26,596 bases of DNA, from contig JAGQRA010000116.1 of assembly GCA_020425885.1 (NCBI GenBank), forward strand, positions 1-26,596, written 5' to 3'. Positions 5,182-24,200 of this stretch are shown here, one piece after another (within the stretch, counting starts at the first letter, position 1; every line of letters starts with the position of its first letter). The position numbers were made by a program, and so were the translations under genes. The notes under the pieces are model-generated. The model searched no databases. It had not been told where the DNA came from and was given only the letters and a program-made list of their open reading frames with translations. Source of the stretch: Planctomycetota bacterium (GTDB lineage: Bacteria; Planctomycetota; UBA1135; UBA2386).

Positions 5182-6012
5182 TTAGCCCTGTAGCAACTGC
5201 AACGCCGCCTGCGGCTGCGTGTTGGCCTGGGCCAGGATCGAGATCGCGGCCTGCTGCAGGATCGAGTTGCGGGTCAGCGCCGAAGTCTCGACCGCGACAT
5301 CGACGTCGCGGATGCGCGACTCCGCCGCCGACAGGTTCTCCGATTGGATCTGCAGATTGGCGATCGTCGTCGTGAGCCGGTTCTGGGCGGCGCCGAACTG
5401 ACCGCGGATCCGGCTGACGGAATTGATCGCGTCATCCAGCGCGCCTACGGCGATGGTCGGCTGGCCGGTGGAGCCGATGTCCAGGCTGGACAGTCCGAGC
5501 GTCAGCGCGAGGGTGTTCGAGGTCGTGAGCTGGATCGTGTCGATGCCCGACGTCGTGCCGGTGCCGACCTGGAAGGTGATGGTCGAGCCGGTGCCGTCGA
5601 GCAACCGCACGCCGTTGAATGTCGTCGACTGCGCGATCCGGTCGATCTCGTTGATCAGATCGGAGAACTCCTGGTTGAGCGTCGTCCGGTCGGCGGCGCT
5701 GACCGTGCCGTTGCTCGACTGGATCGCCAGTTCCCGCATCCTGATCAGGATCGCGCTCACCTCGTTGAGCGAGCCTTCGCCGGTCTGGGTCAGCGAGATG
5801 CCGTCTTGGGCATTGCGGATCGCCTGATTGGTGGAGCGGATCTGGGCGCGGAATCGCTCCGAGATCGCCAATCCAGCGGCGTCGTCGGAGGCCGTCGAGA
5901 TGCGCAATCCCGTCGACAGGCGGCGGTAGTTCGCCTGCAGGCGCTCGGTCGTGTTGGACAGCGAGCGCTGCGCGTTGAGGGATGCGATGTTCGAATTGAC
6001 CCGGAGGCCCAT
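5182..6012 (-). CDS. fliC: Flagellin
   Basis: The filament subunit of the flagellum, exported by the flagellar type III system. The N-terminal D0/D1 region is textbook (MGLRVNSNIASLNAQRSL, then RLSTGLRI, SDDAAGLAISERFRAQIR, NAQDGISLTQTGEGSL, about 1-105), and the C-terminal partner ends in ILAQANTQPQAALQLLQG. At 276 residues it is a short flagellin with only a small variable middle (about 140-190). A Shine-Dalgarno AGGAG lies 7 bases before the ATG. No other flagellar gene is in the window, so this is a detached filament gene, probably controlled by its own late-flagellar promoter. Confidence 0.97.
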   Translation of the reverse strand: MGLRVNSNIASLNAQRSLSNTTERLQANYRRLSTGLRISTASDDAAGLAISERFRAQIRSTNQAIRNAQDGISLTQTGEGSLNEVSAILIRMRELAIQSSNGTVSAADRTTLNQEFSDLINEIDRIAQSTTFNGVRLLDGTGSTITFQVGTGTTSGIDTIQLTTSNTLALTLGLSSLDIGSTGQPTIAVGALDDAINSVSRIRGQFGAAQNRLTTTIANLQIQSENLSAAESRIRDVDVAVETSALTRNSILQQAAISILAQANTQPQAALQLLQG

Positions 6013-6245: not shown

Positions 6246-7757
6246 TCAGCGCAACAGCGGGCTGTAGCGGTAGTGAGCCTCCAGGGTCAGGGCCAGGATG
6301 GCCGTGCTGTAGACGCGGCCGCCTTCCTCGCCCCAGGCGCCGGCCGGATCCCAGGAACCCGTGAGGTTCGCGCCGCTCGGGCTTCGATGCTGGGTCTTCA
6401 CGACCGCCGGCACGAGATGCCGCTGCCAGTCCCGCCATCGGTCCCCGCCCATCTGGAACAGGGCGTAGGTGGCGTAGTACCAGTAGTAGTGGTCGATGGA
6501 GCCATCCTTCTCGTTCCACACCGGGGGCTTGCCGACGATCAGGTCGGCGGCGGCCTTCATCTCCGGCTTCTGCTTCGGGTCCTGCCCCATGAAGAAGCGG
6601 CAGAACAGGCCGACCGCGGTCATGGCCTCGCCCTTGGCGACCGGGAACCGCGCCTCGTGGCTGCCCGGCTTGCGCGAACTCAGCTCGCCCTGCGCGTGGT
6701 ACCCGTGCCGGCCGGTCGCATCGGTGACCTGGTCGAGGAAGGCGGCGGCCAGCTGCAGCGCCGACCTGTTGACCTGCAGGCCGAAGAACTCACCGGACTC
6801 GTAGGCCATGATGGCCCAGCCCGCGATCGAGGTGTCGCCGTCGAGGTCGCGCGGCTGGTAGCGCCAGACGCCGTACGGGTTGCGGTGCGACTCGAGGTAG
6901 TTGAGGCCGCGCTGGGCCGTGGGTTCGAGCAGCCGATACCGCGACAGGCCATAGGCCTCGCACATCGCGTAGGTCGCGATGGCATGGTCGTAGATGAAGT
7001 CGTGCGACATGGCGTTGCCGAACAGGCCGTTCTCCTGCTGCTGCGACCGCAGCCACAGCACGGCCTTCTTGACGTTCTCGCGGTAGGGGCCGCCGCGCAT
7101 CGTGTTGTTGTCGCCGAGGAAGGCCAGCAGCGCGAGGCCGGTGACGCCGACGTCGTGCACGGCGTTGCCGGCGCCATCGCACGGGATGCCGTCGACGTCG
7201 TGCTTCATGAACTGGTCGCTGTCCCACTTGCCGTCGTCGTCCTGATGGCGGGCGAGCCAGCCCAGCGCGAACTGGACCGGGAGCTGGAACTCGCGCGGGG
7301 CGGTGCGCTTCCTCGCGCCGCGGTCGCCGCCGCGCCGATTGCTGGCGGCGCCGCCACCGATGCCGACCGCGGTGTTCCATTGGTTGTTCGTGAACGCCGA
7401 CAGCGTCTCGGTGGTGATGTCGTCGGCGACATCGACGCTGTCGGTGTCCAGGATCTGCGGGTCGACGAGCGTGATGTCGTCGGGAGCGACATCGGGGTCG
7501 GCCTCGATCGGCTTCTGCTTCTCGGGCGGCTGGACCATCTGCTGCGTCGTGTCGACGACCTCGGCGTGATGGTGCGCCTTCGGCTTGGTTTCGGCGGGGA
7601 TCAGCAACCACAGCATCAGGATGCCGATCGCATGCGCCGCCAGCGAGACGGCGAACCAGGGCGCCCGCTGCATCTGCTCGGCGAGCATGTCCTGGAAGCT
7701 CTCCGCTTCCTTCGTTGCCGCGACCGTGGCGAACCGTCTCGAATCGATCTGCGTCAT
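6246..7757 (-). CDS. TonB-like anchored protein with squalene-cyclase/prenyltransferase-type repeats, paralog 1
   Basis: A 503-residue protein. A short cytoplasmic N-terminus is followed by one membrane helix (about 34-53) containing SLAAH (Ser38...His42), the SxxxH pattern of TonB-family anchors that contact ExbB/ExbD. Then come a Pro/Asp-rich linker (about 75-120), a Gly/Arg stretch (about 131-150) and a large domain of alpha/alpha-toroid repeats as in squalene-hopene cyclase and prenyltransferase families (GLALLAFLGDNNT, QQQENGLFG, HAIATYAMCEAYG, WRYQPRDLDGDTS, GGRVYSTAILALTLEAHYRY). The class II cyclase DxDD motif is not present in standard form; DLDGDTS is the nearest. The start at 7757 has AAGGAG six bases before it and matches its paralog's start; the frame is open 35 codons further up. 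Paralog 2 is the next gene upstream. Role unknown; catalytic activity should not be assumed. Confidence 0.85.
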   Translation of the reverse strand: MTQIDSRRFATVAATKEAESFQDMLAEQMQRAPWFAVSLAAHAIGILMLWLLIPAETKPKAHHHAEVVDTTQQMVQPPEKQKPIEADPDVAPDDITLVDPQILDTDSVDVADDITTETLSAFTNNQWNTAVGIGGGAASNRRGGDRGARKRTAPREFQLPVQFALGWLARHQDDDGKWDSDQFMKHDVDGIPCDGAGNAVHDVGVTGLALLAFLGDNNTMRGGPYRENVKKAVLWLRSQQQENGLFGNAMSHDFIYDHAIATYAMCEAYGLSRYRLLEPTAQRGLNYLESHRNPYGVWRYQPRDLDGDTSIAGWAIMAYESGEFFGLQVNRSALQLAAAFLDQVTDATGRHGYHAQGELSSRKPGSHEARFPVAKGEAMTAVGLFCRFFMGQDPKQKPEMKAAADLIVGKPPVWNEKDGSIDHYYWYYATYALFQMGGDRWRDWQRHLVPAVVKTQHRSPSGANLTGSWDPAGAWGEEGGRVYSTAILALTLEAHYRYSPLLR

Positions 7758-7765
7758 GCGTGACT

Positions 7766-7785
7766 CCTTGGTGATGACGCCAAGG
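7766..7785 (-). promoter_or_regulatory. Hairpin that pairs with the ribosome binding site of paralog 1
   Basis: On the minus strand CCTTGG (7785-7780), an 8-base loop and CCAAGG (7771-7766) form a perfect 6-bp stem. The last bases of the right arm are part of the AAGGAG Shine-Dalgarno of the gene starting at 7757, so the folded RNA would mask the ribosome site. Sequence is certain; a regulatory role is inference. Confidence 0.45.
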
Positions 7786-7972
7786 GGAACGCCGCCGCGA
7801 TCGGAGCGGTTCAAGCCGGATCGCGAACGTACTCGCGAGCAAGGATGCGAGTGCGAACGCATGAACGCTGCGTGGACATGCGCTCCGCGCGCAGCTCAGC
7901 GAATCAGCTTCGAATCAGCATCCAGCCCACTCGCCGCAGCCGCGCAGCATGGCGCCGCGCCCCGTACAGCAT

Positions 7973-8007
7973 CGCGGGGAGGACCCTGCTCGAGAGTCCT
8001 CCCCGCG
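7973..8007. other. 12-bp perfect hairpin, first copy
   Basis: CGCGGGGAGGAC, an 11-base loop, then GTCCTCCCCGCG. It lies downstream of paralog 2 and could stop or protect its transcript end, but no T-run follows on either strand, so it is not a standard intrinsic terminator. A factor-independent terminator, an RNA-stabilising end or a protein site are all possible. Confidence 0.5.
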
Positions 8008-8222
8008 TTGGCCTTGATTCGCCCCGCGAAGCTCTGCTTCGCCTGCGGCCGGCGCGAGCCGTCTTCTCGCGCCGTCACCTCCTCCTACCGGCCGCGAAGG
8101 GGAGCATATGAATCTGATCGCTGTGCAGCGCGCTCCACGCGCAGCTCAGCGAATCAGCTTCGAATCAGCATCCAGCTCACTCGCCGCAGCCGCGCAGCAT
8201 GACGCCGCGCCCCGTACAGCAT

Positions 8223-8257
8223 CGCGGGGAGGACCCTGCTCGAGAGTCCTCCCCGCG
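8223..8257. other. 12-bp perfect hairpin, second copy
   Basis: An exact copy of the hairpin at 7973-8007, 250 bases on. The stems and loop are unchanged between the copies although neighbouring bases differ (for example G/A at 8011 versus 8261), so the hairpin is among the better-kept parts of the unit. This copy is 139 bases past the paralog 2 stop codon. Confidence 0.5.
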
Positions 8258-8395
8258 TTGACCTTGATTCGCCCCGCGAAGCTCTGCTTCGCCTGCGGCC
8301 GGCGCGAGCCGTCTTCTCGCGCCGTTACCGCTTCCTACCGGCCGCGAAGGGGAGCATACGAATCTGATCGCTGTGCAGCGCGCTCCGCGCGCAGC

Positions 8396-9916
8396 TCAGC
8401 GAATCAGCTTCGTATACCGGTAGAACGCCTCGAGCGTCAGGGTCAGGATCGCCGTGCTGTAGACGCGACCGCCGTCGTCGCCCCAGGCCCCGACAGGGTC
8501 CCATGAGCCGAGCAGGTTCTTCTTGGCCGAGTCGCCCTGCTGGGTCTTGATGACCGCGTCATTGAGCTTCTTCTGCCAATCGGTCCAGTGGCGGCCACCC
8601 ATCTGGAACAGGGCGTAGGTGCCGTAGTACCAGTAGTAGTGATCGATGCTGCCGTCCTTCTCGTTCCACACCGGCGGCTTGCCGAGGATCAGGTCGGCGG
8701 CGGCCTTCATGACCGGCTTCTCCTTCGGATCCTGGTTCATGAAGAAGCGGCAGAACAGGCCGACCGCGGTCATCGCCTCGCCCTTGTCGACCGGGAACTT
8801 GGTCTGGTGCTCGCCGGGCTTGCGTGAGCTCTGCTCGCCTTGCTTGCTGTAGCCGTGGCGACCCGTCGGGTCCGAGACCTGGTCGAGCCAGACCGCGCAC
8901 AGGTCCAGCGCCGTCTTGTTGATCTGCAGGCCGAAGAACTCGCCCGACTCGTAGGCCATGATGCACCAGCCGGTGACCGACGTGTCGTTGTCGTTGTCGC
9001 GCGGCTGGTAGCGCCAGACCGAGTACGGGTTGCGGTGCGACTCGAGGTAGTTGATCGCCTTCTGGGCAGTCGGCTTGAGCAGCGTGTAGCGCGACAGGCC
9101 GAAGGCCTCGCACATCGCGTAGGACGCGATGGCGTGATCGTAGATGTAGTCGTGCGACGTGTTGGTGCCGAACAACCCGTTCTCCTGCTGCTGCTCGCGC
9201 AGCCACTTGACGCCGTCCTTGACCACCTGCTTGTAGGGGCCGGCGCGCATCGTGTTGTTGTCGCCGAGGAAGGCCAGCAGCGCGAGGCCGGTGACGCCGA
9301 CGTCGTGCACGGCGTTGCCGGCGCCATCGCACGGGATGCCGTCGACGTCATGCTTCATGAACTGGTCGCAGTCCCACTTGCCGTCCTCGTCCTGGTGGTT
9401 CTTGAGCCAGATCAGGCCGCGGTCGATGGCCTGGGCGTAGGCCTTGCCGCCGCCGCGCTTGCCACCCTTGCCACCCCGGCCGCCGTAGCGACCACCGGCA
9501 CCGCCGCCGAGGCCGACGGCCGAGTTCCACTGGTTGCTGTCGAAGGCCGACTCCTTCTGGTTGACCTCGCTGATCGTCTCGACGTTCTCGGTCTCGGTGA
9601 TCACCTGGTCGGTCAGCTCGATCTCGTCGACGACCTCCTCGGTCTTGGTTTCCGGCGGCGGCGGCGGCGGCGGCTCGACGATCTCCTCCTGCTCCTTCTG
9701 CACCATCTCGACGGCGTTGGTCTCCTTCTTCTTCTCCTCGGTGGGCATCATGACCCAGAGGATGAGGATTCCGACGGCATGGAGAGCCGCCGACAAGACG
9801 AGCCAGGGCGCGTGACGGATCTGCTCCGCCATCATGTCCTGGAAGGTGACCTCGGACTCCCAGATGGGGACCGAGTTGGATTGGATATGGATCTTGGTCG
9901 GGTCGACTTGGGACAT
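8396..9916 (-). CDS. TonB-like anchored protein with squalene-cyclase/prenyltransferase-type repeats, paralog 2
   Basis: A 506-residue paralog of the next gene downstream, with the same plan: cytoplasmic N-terminus, one membrane helix (about 38-57) with SAALH (Ser42...His46, the TonB-family SxxxH), a linker with seven prolines in a row (82-88) then an acidic section (about 90-122), a Gly/Lys/Arg-rich hinge (137-157), and alpha/alpha-toroid repeats to the end. Conserved stretches include KHDVDGIPCDGAGNAVHDVG (188-207), QQQENGLFG (242-250) and WRYQPRDNDNDTS (301-313). The hinge and proline linker would let the domain reach across the periplasm. The start at 9916 matches the paralog; GAGG lies about 9 bases before it. 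A SurA-like gene is upstream on the same strand. Function unknown. Confidence 0.85.
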   Translation of the reverse strand: MSQVDPTKIHIQSNSVPIWESEVTFQDMMAEQIRHAPWLVLSAALHAVGILILWVMMPTEEKKKETNAVEMVQKEQEEIVEPPPPPPPETKTEEVVDEIELTDQVITETENVETISEVNQKESAFDSNQWNSAVGLGGGAGGRYGGRGGKGGKRGGGKAYAQAIDRGLIWLKNHQDEDGKWDCDQFMKHDVDGIPCDGAGNAVHDVGVTGLALLAFLGDNNTMRAGPYKQVVKDGVKWLREQQQENGLFGTNTSHDYIYDHAIASYAMCEAFGLSRYTLLKPTAQKAINYLESHRNPYSVWRYQPRDNDNDTSVTGWCIMAYESGEFFGLQINKTALDLCAVWLDQVSDPTGRHGYSKQGEQSSRKPGEHQTKFPVDKGEAMTAVGLFCRFFMNQDPKEKPVMKAAADLILGKPPVWNEKDGSIDHYYWYYGTYALFQMGGRHWTDWQKKLNDAVIKTQQGDSAKKNLLGSWDPVGAWGDDGGRVYSTAILTLTLEAFYRYTKLIR

Positions 9917-11257: not shown

Positions 11258-12007
11258 ATGGCCAAGCGAACCGGGACCTGCATCGTCGTTGGCGCCTCCT
11301 CCGGTATCGGCACGGCTTTGGCGCGACGGCTGGCACTGCAGGGGCGCAAGGTGGCCATGCTGGCGCGGCGCGAGCCCGAGCTGCGGGCCCAGGCCGACAC
11401 CATCAACGACGTGCTCGCTCGCGAGGCCGCGTTCGCCTACGTCCATGACGTGTCCGATCTCGAGGCCGCCGAAGGCCTCTTCGAACGCATCGAAGCCGAC
11501 CTCGGTCCGGTCGACGAGGTCCACTTCGTCGCCGGCGTCAACCCGGAGGTGGGACTCGACGAGTTCGACCTCGCCAAGGACCGCTTGCAGGTCGAGGTCA
11601 ACATGCTCGGCTGCATCGGCTGGGGCAACGCGACGGCCCGGCGCTTCCTGCAACGCAAAGGCGGCTGCCTGGTCGGCGTGACCTCGGTCGCGCAGGATCG
11701 CGGTCGCGTCGGCCGCCCGGTCTACAATGCCAGCAAGGCCGGCATGGACACCTACCTCGAGGCGCTGCGCAACCGGCTGTGGCGGCATGGCGTGCAGGTC
11801 ACGACGATCCGCCCGGGCTTCGTCGAAACGCCGATGACGGCGGGCATGCAGCTGCGCGGTGCGGTCTCCGCGGACCGCGCTGCCGATCTGATCCTGCGCG
11901 CGCGCGATCGCCGCAAGGTGATCGCCTACGTGCCCGGCAAGTGGCGCCTGATCATGTTCGTGATCCGCAACATCCCTTCGTTCGTGTTCCGCAAGCTGTC
12001 GATCTGA
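11258..12007 (+). CDS. dprE2: DprE2-like short-chain dehydrogenase (polyprenyl-phospho-keto-pentose reductase)
   Basis: A 249-residue NAD(P)-dependent SDR enzyme. It has the nucleotide-binding GASSGIG (12-18), the catalytic Ser143 (VTSVAQ), Tyr156 and Lys160 (YNASK). The C-terminal tail WRLIMFVIRNIPSFVFRKLSI-like end closely resembles the tail of mycobacterial DprE2 (RHIPRSIFRKLPI), which sets it apart from ordinary SDRs. In mycobacteria DprE2 reduces the 2'-keto intermediate made by DprE1, completing ribose-to-arabinose epimerisation on decaprenyl phosphate. The DprE1-like gene starts 8 bases after its stop, so the two are one operon and probably one enzyme system. The start at 11258 was chosen because MAKRTGTCIVVGASS is a normal SDR start; the frame runs 28 codons further up without a likely start. 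Whether the sugar here is arabinose is inference. Confidence 0.85.
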   Translation: MAKRTGTCIVVGASSGIGTALARRLALQGRKVAMLARREPELRAQADTINDVLAREAAFAYVHDVSDLEAAEGLFERIEADLGPVDEVHFVAGVNPEVGLDEFDLAKDRLQVEVNMLGCIGWGNATARRFLQRKGGCLVGVTSVAQDRGRVGRPVYNASKAGMDTYLEALRNRLWRHGVQVTTIRPGFVETPMTAGMQLRGAVSADRAADLILRARDRRKVIAYVPGKWRLIMFVIRNIPSFVFRKLSI

Positions 12008-12015
12008 GGAACGCA

Positions 12016-13461
12016 ATGACTGCTACTTCGGACGGGATCTCGAACTGGCGCGACGAGGACGTCCGCGGCTTCGGCATGCTCATCGGCGGCGGCAGCCGGG
12101 TGCTGCGGCCGACCTCGACCGAGCAGGTCGCGGCGGTGTTCGCGGCGGCGCGCCGCGACGGCGAGACGATCGCCCTGCGCGGCGCCGGCTGCAGCTACGG
12201 CGACGCGGCGACCGGCGTTGGCCGCAAGGTGCTCGATCTGACGGCGATGAACCGCATCCTCGCCTTCGACCCCCTGACCGGCATCGCGACCGTCGAACCC
12301 GGCGTGACGGTGCGCGATCTGTGGCGCTGCGCCATCGCCTTCGGCTTCTGGCCCAAGGTCGTCAGCGGCACGATGGACGTGTCGATGGGCGGCGCGGCCG
12401 CGATGAACATCCACGGCAAGAACAACTACGCGCTCGGCTCGTTCGGCGAGTGCGTGCGGTCGTTCGAGATGGTGACGCCAGCCGGCGAGGTCGTGAGCTG
12501 CAGCCGCGAGGCGGAGCCCGAGCTGTTCCACGCCGCCATCTCCGGCTTCGGCATGCTCGGCTGCTTCACCAGGCTCGAGATCGCGACCAAACGCGTGCAT
12601 TCGGGTCGGCTGCGGGTCTGGGGCATTCCGGCCCGCGATCTCGAGCACAACATCGAGCTCATCGAGGAACTGCGCGGCAAGGCCGACTACCTGGTGTCAT
12701 GGCTCGACCTGCACGCCAAGGGCGCGGGTCTCGGCCGCGGCCTGCTGCATCGCGCCGATCAGCTGCAGCCCGGCGAGGATCCCGAGGGTCTGCGCTACCT
12801 CGACCCGATGTTACAGGACGTGCCGTCGCGCCTGTTCGGCCTCGTGCCCAAGGGTTGGCTGTGGCCGGGAATGTGGTGCGCGGTGCACCTCGGTCAGGTC
12901 GGCCTCGTCAACTGGCTGAAGTTCAAGGCCGGCTTCCGCGAGGCGCGCAACTCGCCCTACCTGCAGTCGCACGGCGCCTTCCACTTCCTGCTCGACTACG
13001 TGCCGCGCTGGCACTGGATGACGAAGCCCGGCGGGCTGATCCAGTTCCAACCGTTCGTGCCGGCGGCGGCGGCGCCGCGCGTGTTGCGCACGATCATCGA
13101 GCGCTGTCACCAGGCCGGCCACGTGCCGTATCTCGGCGTCCTCAAGCGGCACCGACCCGATCCGTTCCTGATGACGCACGCCGTCGACGGCTTCTCGCTG
13201 GCGATGGACTTCGCCGTGAGCTCGAGCAAGCGCAAGCGCGACGAGCTGTGGCGGCTCTGCCAGCAGAACGCCGAGCTCGTGCACGAGGCCGGCGGTCGCT
13301 TCTATTACGCCAAGGATGCGGTGCTGCTGCCGTCGTCGTTCGCCAAGGTGCACGGCGAGGACGCGGTGCGGAAGTTCCGCGAGTTGAAGCTGCGCTGCGA
13401 TCCCGACGGGGTGCTGCAGACCGATCTGTCGCGCCGGCTCGGCGTGCTGCCCGGGGCTTAG
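12016..13461 (+). CDS. dprE1: DprE1-like FAD-dependent decaprenylphosphoryl-ribose 2'-oxidase
   Basis: A 481-residue FAD oxidoreductase of the PCMH/VAO type. Landmarks shared with mycobacterial DprE1, recalled from memory: GAGCSYGD (56-63), the flavin-site segment NIHGKN (131-136, His133), GSFGECVRS (141-149), QFQPFVP (343-349), MDFAV (397-401), YAKD (431-434, Lys433 matching the catalytic Lys418) and a DxxRRLG-like end. At the place of Cys387, the covalent target of benzothiazinones, the sequence reads FSLAMDF with Ala396. The family oxidises the 2'-hydroxyl of polyprenyl-phosphoryl-ribose on the membrane face. The ATG at 12016 follows GAGGA, which overlaps the stop of the DprE2-like gene. 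No arabinosyltransferase or UbiA-type partner is in the window. Confidence 0.88.
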   Translation: MTATSDGISNWRDEDVRGFGMLIGGGSRVLRPTSTEQVAAVFAAARRDGETIALRGAGCSYGDAATGVGRKVLDLTAMNRILAFDPLTGIATVEPGVTVRDLWRCAIAFGFWPKVVSGTMDVSMGGAAAMNIHGKNNYALGSFGECVRSFEMVTPAGEVVSCSREAEPELFHAAISGFGMLGCFTRLEIATKRVHSGRLRVWGIPARDLEHNIELIEELRGKADYLVSWLDLHAKGAGLGRGLLHRADQLQPGEDPEGLRYLDPMLQDVPSRLFGLVPKGWLWPGMWCAVHLGQVGLVNWLKFKAGFREARNSPYLQSHGAFHFLLDYVPRWHWMTKPGGLIQFQPFVPAAAAPRVLRTIIERCHQAGHVPYLGVLKRHRPDPFLMTHAVDGFSLAMDFAVSSSKRKRDELWRLCQQNAELVHEAGGRFYYAKDAVLLPSSFAKVHGEDAVRKFRELKLRCDPDGVLQTDLSRRLGVLPGA

Positions 13462-21361: not shown

Positions 21362-22528
21362 GTGCTGGTCGCGGTGAGGCTCTTCACGCGCAGCTGCCTC
21401 GGCTACTTCCTGCGCCGCTTCGCCTGGGTCTTCGCGCTGGTCCATTCCTTCCTGGCCCTCGCCGGCCTGCTCGGCCTGCTGGCGAGCTTCCCGTACGTGC
21501 CGCTGCCGCGCCTGCTCGGCAGCCTGCCCGAGGCGCTGCTGCTGGCCCTGCCGGTCTCGATGCCGCTGTCGGTGTTGGCGGCCGGCGTGATGTTCTGCGG
21601 TGATCTCGGCCGGCGGCAGGGCTGGCTGTGGCTGCAGGCGGCCGGCGGTCGGACGTCGCAGGTGACGTGGCCGATCCACGTCTTCGTGCTGCTGATCTCG
21701 GTCGTTCTGCTGTGGCTCGAGTGCGAGGTCGTGCCGCACGCCGCGTACCGGGCGCGGTTCGTCATCGACGCCCTGCAGGAGAACCCGCAGACCATCGCGC
21801 TGCGGTTGGGGCGCAAGCAGAGCTTCCTGCGCGGCTTCAAGGTCGGGTTCGCGGACGAGGTCGACGGTGCGCTGACCGACTTCGGGCTGTGGACCGACGT
21901 CGAAGAGTCCGGGACCGTCCTGGTGCGGGCCGAGCGTGCCCGTATCGGCCTGGTCGCCGGGGGGCGGGATCTCGAACTCAGGCTCGAGAACGGTCGCTAT
22001 CTCGCGATCGATCCGACCGGACGGCTGACGGACAACCTGCGGTTCGCCCAGCTCAGGATGACGATGGATGCCCACCGGCTGTCGGTGCGATCCAAGGGTG
22101 AGATCCTGGATCTGACCTACTACTCCGAGGGCGAGTTGTCGCGGTTGCCGCAGCAGGCCAGCCTGCTGCGCGACAAGGCCGTCGCGATCGGCGACCGCCA
22201 GCGTGCAAGGCTTCGAGCCATCGACACGGTGCGGGCGCTCCGGCTCGGCTCGGCGGCGTTGCCGTGGCTGTTGCTGGTGCTGGCCCTGGTGCCGGCATCG
22301 GTCGTCGGTCAGGGCTCGCGACGACGCACCTCGATCGCGGTCGTCATCTGCGGTGCTGTCCTGCTGATCCAGCAGGTGACGCTCGAGACGCTCGCCGCCA
22401 AACACGGCGTGTTGTCTTGGCCGTTGCTGGCCGCCGCGCCGGCCTTCGAGGTCGCGGCCGTGGTATCGCTGCATCGGTTCGTGCGGCACCGGAGTCGGCG
22501 GCGGTCGTCGTTCACGGGAGGCCGGTGA
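21362..22528 (+). CDS. LPS export permease LptF/LptG family, first copy
   Basis: A 388-residue inner-membrane protein of the YjgP/YjgQ family. It has three N-terminal membrane helices (about 14-38, 53-78, 98-120; FLRRFAWVFALVHSFLAL, LLLALPVSMPLSVLAAGVMF), a large periplasmic beta domain (about 125-280) and three C-terminal helices (about 289-365). In the LptB2FG complex it pulls LPS out of the inner membrane. It begins with GTG at 21362 (another GTG four codons on). Its stop TGA overlaps the ATG of the next permease (TGATG), so the genes are translationally coupled. F or G cannot be told apart by eye. Confidence 0.85.
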   Translation: MLVAVRLFTRSCLGYFLRRFAWVFALVHSFLALAGLLGLLASFPYVPLPRLLGSLPEALLLALPVSMPLSVLAAGVMFCGDLGRRQGWLWLQAAGGRTSQVTWPIHVFVLLISVVLLWLECEVVPHAAYRARFVIDALQENPQTIALRLGRKQSFLRGFKVGFADEVDGALTDFGLWTDVEESGTVLVRAERARIGLVAGGRDLELRLENGRYLAIDPTGRLTDNLRFAQLRMTMDAHRLSVRSKGEILDLTYYSEGELSRLPQQASLLRDKAVAIGDRQRARLRAIDTVRALRLGSAALPWLLLVLALVPASVVGQGSRRRTSIAVVICGAVLLIQQVTLETLAAKHGVLSWPLLAAAPAFEVAAVVSLHRFVRHRSRRRSSFTGGR

Positions 22529-23466
22529 TGATCCTCGAACGCGCCCTGCTGCGGCGCTTCCTCACCCAGGCGACCGTTCTCCTCGCCGCCGCCACGTTGC
22601 TCGCGATCCTGGTGTTCGGCGGCCAGCTGCTCGGCGTGGCGGGAGAGGACGGAGTCGTGGCGCTCGTCGAGTTCTGCCGCGACACGCTCGGTTTCCTCAC
22701 CGTCGCCGTGCTGATCGCGGTGCCGCTGGCGGTGCTGCGGGTCCTCGTCGAGCTGCGCCGCAGCGGCGTCCTCGAGACCTGTTGTGCCGCCGGTCTGGCG
22801 CCGGCTCGGATCTGGCGTCTGATGGCCGGGGTCGCGTTGCTCACGGCGGTGCTCCACGCCGCCCTGCTCGAGCTCGGTGCCCTCGGGCGCGATGGCCACG
22901 GCGCCTCGAACCTGTGGACCAGCGGCGATCATCAGGTCTGGTGCCCATTGCCGCGGACCGCGCCCGAGCAGCTGCTGCTGTTCCGGATGGATCGCCTCGA
23001 TGTCGGGACCTTGTCGCGATCGGCGGCGGCCGCCGCCTCGGCCGCCACCCCGGCGAGGCCTCGGGTGATCGCCGGGCGCGAGATCGAACTCACCGCGTTC
23101 GCGCCGCCGCCGCCCCTGCCCGAGCCGTTCGGGATCCTGCCGATCTCGCGGTGGAGCGGCAGCGGTGTGACTCGCAACGCGGTCCTGACCGGGCTCGTGC
23201 ATCTGCTGCACGGACCGCTGCTGGTCCTGTTCGCCGCCTGCCTGGCGTTGCTGATGCCCGGCGACCGACTCGGCTTCGCCGCGTTGATGTTCATCGGGCT
23301 GGCGTTGCTCTCGGGGCTCGCGAGCGCGACGCTGACGGTGCTGCTGTGGCAGGATTCGGTCGCGGCTCGGGTCGGGGTCCTCGTCTGGTTGTCGATCTGT
23401 CTGGTCGCCCTGCTGGCCGCGCACGCGACCTACCGGCGGCGTGGCCTGCGTGGGGCATTGCGGTGA
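22528..23466 (+). CDS. LPS export permease LptF/LptG family, second short copy
   Basis: A 312-residue partner permease with six predicted helices (about 14-36, 50-72, 87-110, then 229-252, 255-275, 285-305). Typical pieces are LLRRFLTQATVLLAAATLLA and TVAVLIAVPLAVLRVLVELR, and ETCCAAGLAPARIWRL resembles the cytoplasmic coupling helix (usually E...RAxGxS). The periplasmic part is only about 115 residues, with a low-complexity Ala/Pro stretch (about 168-195), shorter than in the classic proteins (about 360 residues in total). It overlaps the preceding permease by one base and the ATPase gene follows directly, so LptF-LptG-LptB-LptC form one operon. Confidence 0.78.
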   Translation: MILERALLRRFLTQATVLLAAATLLAILVFGGQLLGVAGEDGVVALVEFCRDTLGFLTVAVLIAVPLAVLRVLVELRRSGVLETCCAAGLAPARIWRLMAGVALLTAVLHAALLELGALGRDGHGASNLWTSGDHQVWCPLPRTAPEQLLLFRMDRLDVGTLSRSAAAAASAATPARPRVIAGREIELTAFAPPPPLPEPFGILPISRWSGSGVTRNAVLTGLVHLLHGPLLVLFAACLALLMPGDRLGFAALMFIGLALLSGLASATLTVLLWQDSVAARVGVLVWLSICLVALLAAHATYRRRGLRGALR

Positions 23467-23471
23467 GCGTC

Positions 23472-24200
23472 ATGAGTCGACTCGAGATCCGAGATCTGCG
23501 GAAGAGCTACGGTCGGCGTCGCGTGCTCGCCGACGTCTCGATCGACGTGAGCGCCGGCGCGATCACCGGCCTGCTCGGCCCGAACGGTGCCGGCAAGTCG
23601 ACGATGTTCAAGATCCTGATGGGACTGGTTCCGGCCGACGCCGGCATGGCCACGCTCGATGGTTGCGAACTCCTCGGCCAGCCGCTGCACGGCATGGCGG
23701 CGCTCGGGCTCGGCTATCTGCCGCAGGACAGCTGCTCGTTCCCCGAACTCAGTGTCGCCGACAACCTGCTCGCGCTGCTCGAACTGCGGCCCATGCCGCG
23801 GACCGCCCGCCGCGCCCGGCTGGATGAGCTGCTGCAGCTCACGGGGCTGCCGGATCTGCGCGATCATCGCTACGAGACCCTGTCGGGCGGCGAGGCCCGC
23901 CGCGTCGAGGTCGCCAAGACCCTGATCGGCGAGCCGCGCTACCTGCTGCTCGACGAGCCGTTCGCGGCGCTCGACCCGCGTTCGATCGAGCAGTTGGCCG
24001 CCTTGCTGCGAGCCATGGCCGGCCGCGGCCTCGGCATCCTGCTCTCCGATCACAACGTCCACGTCGCCTTCCGTCACCTCGACTACGCCTACCTGCTCGC
24101 CGATGGAGAGGTGCAGGCCGAGGGGCCGCCCGATGCGGTCGCCGCCGACCCCGAGGCCCGGCGACTCTACCTCGGCGACAGCTTCCCGGAGACGCGATGA
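23472..24200 (+). CDS. lptB: LPS export ABC transporter ATPase LptB
   Basis: The ATP-hydrolysing subunit of the LPS extraction machine, cytoplasmic. In 242 residues (E. coli LptB is 241): Walker A GPNGAGKST (36-44), Q-loop Gln85 (YLPQD), signature LSGGE (137-141), Walker B YLLLDEP (157-163) and the switch His194 in LSDHNV, the LptB-type H-loop. A GTG at 23463 is an alternative start that overlaps the previous stop. The LptC-like gene overlaps its stop (ATGA). With two permease genes before it, the Lpt assignment is firm. Confidence 0.93.
   Translation: MSRLEIRDLRKSYGRRRVLADVSIDVSAGAITGLLGPNGAGKSTMFKILMGLVPADAGMATLDGCELLGQPLHGMAALGLGYLPQDSCSFPELSVADNLLALLELRPMPRTARRARLDELLQLTGLPDLRDHRYETLSGGEARRVEVAKTLIGEPRYLLLDEPFAALDPRSIEQLAALLRAMAGRGLGILLSDHNVHVAFRHLDYAYLLADGEVQAEGPPDAVAADPEARRLYLGDSFPETR

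Follow-up and report, generated by a model that had tools for sequence, protein, structure and literature searches.

The locus considered here raises the question of what a membrane anchor resembling that of TonB does in front of a domain resembling a squalene cyclase. The window, i.e., the whole stretch of 26,596 nucleotides analysed (positions 1 to 26,596 of contig JAGQRA010000116.1, assembly GCA_020425885.1, from a Planctomycetota bacterium), contains two tandem genes whose products, 64% identical in a protein alignment, share a layout in which an N-terminal tail of about 30-36 residues ending in APW is followed by a membrane helix with an SxxxH motif, an acidic and proline-rich linker, a Gly/Lys/Arg hinge and an alpha/alpha-toroid. 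This architecture, first set out in a preliminary description of the sequence, is confirmed in both open reading frames (ORFs). Taken together, the present data make it probable that the products of this gene pair are periplasmic force transducers akin to TonB and TolA, held in the inner membrane by their anchor, coupled to the proton motive force and headed by an alpha/alpha-toroid. The earlier interpretation, an energised TonB-type anchor joined to a toroid, is thus partly supported, and it is from sequence that we infer both the coupling to a motor and a ligand for the toroid. The two genes are as follows.

6246..7757 (-), paralog 1, a TonB-type anchor plus alpha-toroid protein of 503 amino acids (ORF; family alignment)
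8396..9916 (-), paralog 2, a TonB-type anchor plus alpha-toroid protein of 506 amino acids (ORF; profile search)

Planctomycetota envelopes are unusual and, to our knowledge, the power source of their periplasmic machines is poorly known. The toroid family may be an undescribed kind of machine that passes energy across the cell envelope.

The anchor helix and its likeness to TonB

The features of the anchor on which the argument turns are these.

7632..7646 (-), SLAAH, residues 38-42, in the membrane helix of paralog 1 (sequence; conserved column)
9746..9808 (-), N-terminal membrane helix of paralog 2, about residues 37-57 (AlphaFold helix 37-55; hydropathy profile of 87 homologues)
9779..9793 (-), SAALH, residues 42-46, of paralog 2, in the pattern of TonB Ser16/His20 (invariant columns S42 and H46)
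9704..9712 (-), V69-E70-M71 of paralog 2, a strand like the motor box (D-box), 23-25 residues past the His (hydropathy peak; pattern count)

An alignment of 23 sequences shows no variation at Ser42 and His46, nor at Met1, Phe25, Pro37 and Trp38, and the rest of the N-terminal region is variable. Conservation of the Ser and His extends to distant homologues. A wider set of 97 distinct toroid ORFs, drawn from the window and from loci across Planctomycetota, includes 90 with a transmembrane-like segment upstream of the toroid, five that are too short to judge and two without such a segment, and it leans toward anchored proteins because the loci were chosen with a profile that spans the N-terminus. 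Among the 90, SxxxH is found in 84 and AxxxH in three, two (L262:1133-2695 and L282) begin with what resembles a signal peptide, and one has a helix without His. Alignment of 87 sequences on the His places Ser at -4 in 97%, Pro at -9 in 99% and Trp at -8 in 84%, with an entropy of about 2-2.6 bits in the other helix columns. The control consisted of 337 other proteins with transmembrane-like N-termini from the same stretches (not deduplicated), 13 of which have SxxxH; these are nine toroids overlooked by the filter, two TonBs and two others, leaving 2 of ~326 once the overlooked toroids and the TonBs are set aside.

In E. coli, TonB Ser16/His20 and TolA Ser18/His22 touch ExbB and TolQ, respectively, according to the available text of PMC12215075. 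The TonBs of related genomes carry the same motif: 19 ORFs matching a TonB_C profile of our own were passed through a rule that required a helix with xxxxH and allowed five letters at -4, and all 10 that passed have Ser at that position, the nine left out including at least one false negative (L112, the TonB of L137, with SCVLH). When the TonB anchors were compared with the toroid anchors as profiles, the match had a probability of 86.7, as against at most 2.1 for eight control families, both sets being centred on the His in a way that favours such a match. The proposed likeness to TonB finds support at the level of profiles.

A cleaved signal peptide was rejected for the main family on the basis of the ~36-residue N-terminal tail and the layout of helix followed by linker, although two distant toroids seem to have one. 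Because a conserved tail precedes the helix and no obvious cleavage site follows it, the helix looks, by its sequence, like an uncleaved membrane anchor, in keeping with what had been assumed.

Beyond the helix, the D-box strand that in E. coli lies just past the TonB helix binds ExbD, as stated in the available part of PMC10907165. Within the toroid family, hydropathy peaks at positions +23 and +25 counted from the His, in the form [VI]x[MAV] flanked by polar columns (87 homologues), and the strict pattern [VIL]-polar-[MVIL] at H+20..+30 occurs in 38/87, compared with a mean of 14.8 and a maximum of 25 in 1000 shuffles. Part of the family may thus have, past the helix, a strand similar to the D-box of TonB, which would be a candidate ExbD-binding segment.

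Motor genes and the transducer model

The components of a motor are at hand in these genomes, as the interpretation in the preliminary description requires: ExbD is present in all 84 distinct genomes tested among relatives of the window (12/12, 33/33, 33/33 and 12/12 by batch), and both PF01618 (ExbB/TolQ/MotA) and TonB_C were found in 12 of 12 genomes searched. Motor genes lie near a toroid gene in 2 of 65 stretches scanned, L255 (genome G123) and L256 (G070), a count obtained with ExbB/ExbD profiles of our own that derive from a single motor type, so that other types may have escaped them, on stretches many of which are short contigs; a third case, in G050, was found by position. In these three genomes a same-strand cluster encodes, in order, the toroid protein, a protein of ~960 amino acids, a protein of ~372 amino acids, ExbB, ExbD and ExbD. 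Between G123 and G050 the toroid proteins are 55% identical, the ~960-residue proteins 33% and the ~372-residue proteins 38%; in G123 the larger of the latter two has TPR matches under the cut-off, and the smaller reaches 26.7 bits for TPR against a cut-off of 26.3. A fourth genome, G154, has a toroid near-identical to that of G050 on a contig too short to judge linkage. As to the linkage to exbB/exbD for which a survey had been suggested, the toroid lies within an ExbB-ExbD-ExbD cluster in three genomes; most toroid genes examined, however, are not beside motor genes.

This gene context has a published parallel. The available text of PMC12204202 (2025, Mol Biol Evol) describes vWA-headed transducers with a Ser/His helix from several phyla, Planctomycetes included, often with TPR, tolQ-like and two tolR-like genes upstream of their own; neighbours of this sort are reported for the PVC group. 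Like these proteins, the toroid family combines a transmembrane Ser/His helix, a disordered linker, a non-TonB head and Planctomycetes hosts, and in three toroid genomes there are TPR-like, ExbB/TolQ-like and two ExbD/TolR-like genes nearby; unlike them, it has an alpha/alpha-toroid as head, and most toroid genes examined lie apart from motor genes. The toroid family is best read as a sister class of these vWA-headed proteins. The words toroid, squalene and cyclase are absent from the main text of that paper as available, and no description of toroid-headed transducers was found in the open-access literature searched. With TonB and TolA the family shares the single N-terminal SxxxH helix, the proline-rich and acidic linker and perhaps, in part of the family, the strand-like segment past the helix, but it lacks the TonB_C or TolA C-terminal domain and has a longer conserved cytoplasmic tail and an extra hinge motif. 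A large paralogous anchor-toroid family of this kind would add to the proton-driven transducers now represented by TonB, TolA and the vWA class.

The SxxxH and AxxxH anchors, the TonB profile match, the strand-like pattern, the presence of ExbD and the three clusters have all been counted in favour of transducers, as has the VIT/vWA head that sits on the same anchor and hinge in L210 and L211. Several points weigh on the other side, the lean of the homologue sample and the His-centring of the profile sets among them. ExbB and ExbD are common in diderms, so that their presence in toroid genomes is necessary and not specific. No motor gene was seen beside the toroid in 63 of the 65 scanned stretches, the window included, and G123, G070, G050 and G154 all belong to one class, from which 12 genomes were sampled. 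The strict D-box-like pattern is found in under half of the family, and E. coli ExbB Trp38 has, by eye, no clear counterpart in the ExbBs listed. Further, the Ser/His motif is weakest where motor linkage is strongest, because the cluster-linked anchors of G123 and G070 have AxxxH and those of G050 and G154 lack the His.

Some of these points would be expected if the helix merely tethered a periplasmic toroid, be it an enzyme or a binding protein, with the Ser and His serving helix packing or an unrelated membrane partner; the 63 stretches without a neighbouring motor gene and the His-less protein of G050/G154 speak for such a passive anchor, as do the two toroids noted above that seemingly have a plain signal peptide in its place. 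However, a passive tether does not readily explain why a polar Ser and His are kept within a membrane helix in 84/90 proteins when the rest of the helix varies, why SxxxH is so rare in the control helices, or why the pattern equals that of the TonBs in related genomes, and we regard it as rather unlikely.

If the toroid proteins are transducers, a mechanism may be proposed. The anchor helix, with its near-invariant P-W-xxx-S-xxx-H, would dock on a pentamer of the ExbB/TolQ type via the His, and possibly the Ser, and the V-x-M strand would be captured by the periplasmic dimer of ExbD/TolR. Proton flow could then put tension through the acidic and proline-rich linker, while the toroid, at the outer membrane or the cell wall, would grip a partner, which may be a protein, a glycan or a lipid. 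A single shared partner, either a docking protein or a protease, may recognise the hinge.

Motor and TonB genes were also seen away from the toroid. In the window's own group an ExbB-ExbD-ExbD set without a toroid occurs in 8 of 10 stretches examined, preceded by a TPR protein (above the cut-off in L124) and by a relative of the ~372-residue protein (28% identity over 139 residues, E 2e-6); the ~950-residue proteins of L124 and L255 have no BLAST match to each other at 1e-3. Proteins of another family, F2 (20 members in the clustering), mostly flank this triad on both sides. They were at one time taken for TPR proteins, a reading that was dropped since the one tested, L124:11745-14375(+), has a Secretin domain (80.5 vs 27.5 bits), and a motor with secretins at its side may form a separate system. 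TonB proper, with SxxxH and TonB_C, is encoded at L136:16494-17300(+) and L137:16980-17657(+); it lies 8-15 kb from a toroid gene in 6 of 12 genomes and on separate contigs in the other six. A further arrangement is seen in L267:2371-4599(+), a toroid protein (ORF of 743 amino acids) with a signal-peptide-like start and, upstream of the toroid, an ExbD-like periplasmic stretch that matches PF02472 positions 50-121 at E 2e-5 and was not seen by our own ExbD profile. Several ExbD-like stretches per chain occur in L269:2092-4068(-), L271:1567-3522(-), L272:1729-3327(-) and L273:2158-3312(+).

The toroid head

6258..7295 (-), alpha/alpha-toroid of paralog 1, about residues 155-500 (alignment; own toroid profile 698 bits)
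8408..9451 (-), alpha/alpha-toroid of paralog 2, residues 156-503 (predicted structure)

The C-terminal part is modelled by AlphaFold as an alpha/alpha-toroid, the fold class of class II terpene cyclases, and carries a strongly conserved set of residues. Pfam PF13243 passes its cut-off in paralog 2 only, paralog 1 remaining below it at 21.8 bits; TonB_C has no match listed at E<=0.1 for either paralog, and VWA has no match in either. The family is large: a search with paralog 2 scored 7995 candidates, 2076 of them at E<=0.001, the named copies among the 120 listed being called terpene cyclase, prenyltransferase/squalene oxidase repeat protein or hypothetical protein, and the family profile at the same threshold matches 132/149 sampled genomes, often in several copies and not always with the anchor. 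The nearest relatives are from Planctomycetota (31 loci, most of them in Planctomycetota metagenome-assembled genomes, with a best protein identity of 85%).

It is conceivable that the anchor serves only for placement and that the toroid is a membrane-bound enzyme, of the terpene-cyclase or of the sugar-epimerase/glycosidase toroid type, whose substrate would be lipid-linked or part of the cell wall, a scenario compatible with a passive anchor. However, the catalytic DxDD is not conserved, being contained in 10/97 toroids at differing sequences, the commonest form of the conserved segment being DNDNDTS, and the cyclase models score far under their cut-offs (28.5 against 322.7 bits for TIGR01787 and 25.4 against 431.1 bits for TIGR01507). 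In addition, toroid folds have many functions, and an enzyme would leave the Ser/His anchor unexplained. A membrane-bound enzyme is thus an explanation in which we place little confidence, and a terpene cyclase in particular is disfavoured by the DxDD count and the model scores. The lack of a conserved DxDD and the presence of an anchor with a linker set the family apart from toroids of the squalene-hopene cyclase and prenyltransferase type, and to judge from these comparisons it is not a typical terpene cyclase. The lipid or polyprenyl ligand that had been suggested finds no backing, as nothing favours it over a sugar, a peptide or a protein.

The hinge peptide and the surroundings of the gene pair

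7341..7394 (-), hinge motif of paralog 1, FTNNQWNTAVGIGGGAAS, residues 122-139 (sequence; motif family)
9491..9544 (-), hinge motif of paralog 2, FDSNQWNSAVGLGGGAGG, residues 125-142 (common to A2M-, VIT/vWA- and YfbK-like proteins of relatives)

Large unrelated proteins came up in the search for relatives on account of the peptide ESAFDSNQWNSAVGLGGGAGG, and a hinge profile matches 27/28 genomes at E<=0.01. The hinge is found in SxxxH-anchored toroids, in SxxxH-anchored VIT/vWA proteins (L210, L211), in VIT/vWA proteins with a signal-peptide-like start and a C-terminal toroid (L209, L213, L218, L219), in A2M-like proteins (L205, L206, L207, L215, L217, L222), in YfbK-like proteins (L027, L214) and in giant proteins (L221, L026) that match no Pfam model. 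In the A2M-like proteins it separates the bait-region domain from the A2M domain, and in the VIT proteins it precedes the vWA or toroid domains.

The thioester-bearing (TED) domain of A2M belongs to the toroid fold class, and the toroid family shares its hinge peptide with A2M-like proteins of the same genomes; unlike the TED of alpha-2-macroglobulin, it has no thioester motif, and PF07678 is under the cut-off. Improbable on these grounds is a macroglobulin- or complement-like trap, in which the toroid would be a stand-alone TED-like domain and the hinge a bait whose cleavage by a protease releases or activates it, since the position of the hinge in A2M-like and VIT proteins and weak TED_complement matches (15.1 and 15.8 bits vs 22) are set against the absence of GCxEQ from all 97 toroids and, by regular expression, from eight hinge-bearing large proteins (L204-L207, L028, L029, L221 and L222, four of which, L205-L207 and L222, have Pfam A2M domains), and against the strong conservation of the hinge, bait regions usually being regarded as variable. 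The TED/complement domain was likewise rejected as the family of the toroid, there being no thioester and a match under the cut-off.

The hinge varies in step within genomes. When non-toroid copies were compared with toroid copies, leaving out toroid-carrying proteins and without modelling genome relatedness, mean identity was 0.743 within a genome (14 comparisons, 12 genomes) and 0.544 between genomes (154), a likeness reached by 0/5000 label permutations. For 7/14 copies no foreign toroid hinge fits better, and for the other seven 1 to 5 genomes do. A wider comparison gave 0.742 vs 0.527 (20 and 360), with 6/20 rows being toroid-bearing VIT proteins, one of these six a spurious match of the regular expression. 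Codons are identical at 157/256 shared hinge residues (61%), where 51% is expected from codon usage; since this excess is modest, recent gene conversion is not favoured as the source of the shared hinge. The simplest inference from these sequences is that one common reader recognises the peptide, and a shared, co-varying hinge offers a concrete handle for finding that partner.

The hinge allows a broader model, which is proposed tentatively, of a phylum-wide modular envelope system. In this model one proton-driven TonB-type anchor would carry interchangeable heads (alpha-toroid or VIT/vWA), and free A2M-, VIT/vWA- and YfbK-like proteins would share the hinge [FY]xxxxxNxx[IV]GxGGGAGG, the copies evolving in step in each genome because one partner, a processing protease or docking protein, reads them. 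If true, this system, coupled to the proton motive force, would broadly parallel in bacteria the metazoan A2M/inter-alpha-inhibitor/complement domain set.

Within the window, the gene pair is accompanied by rpsT and by genes for a TPR protein, a flagellin, a SurA-like protein, a DprE2/DprE1-like pair and a DEAD-box helicase, with LptF/G and LptB genes farther away. The order toroid, SurA-like protein, SDR, FAD oxidase, helicase is kept wholly or partly in four related regions, and of the loci L001-L024, 24 in all and several of them truncated where a contig ends, 15 have a second toroid adjoining the first. The SurA-like/DprE-like neighbourhood to which attention had been drawn is thus conserved in relatives, but it gives no function.

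Some minor observations concern these neighbours. The SDR (11258-12007(+)) and FAD oxidase (12016-13461(+)) are DprE2/DprE1-like at 130/250 and 251/500 bits, under the cut-offs, and relatives keep the pair close to their SurA-like and toroid genes. At 21362-24200(+) there is a row of an LptF/LptG family permease, a second protein without an NCBIfam match and an LptB-type ATPase, the latter matching TIGR04406 at 248.6 bits against a cut-off of 240. Directly downstream of the toroid pair lies a short flagellin (5182-6012(-), 276 amino acids), whose family has 14 members among 45 clustered stretches.

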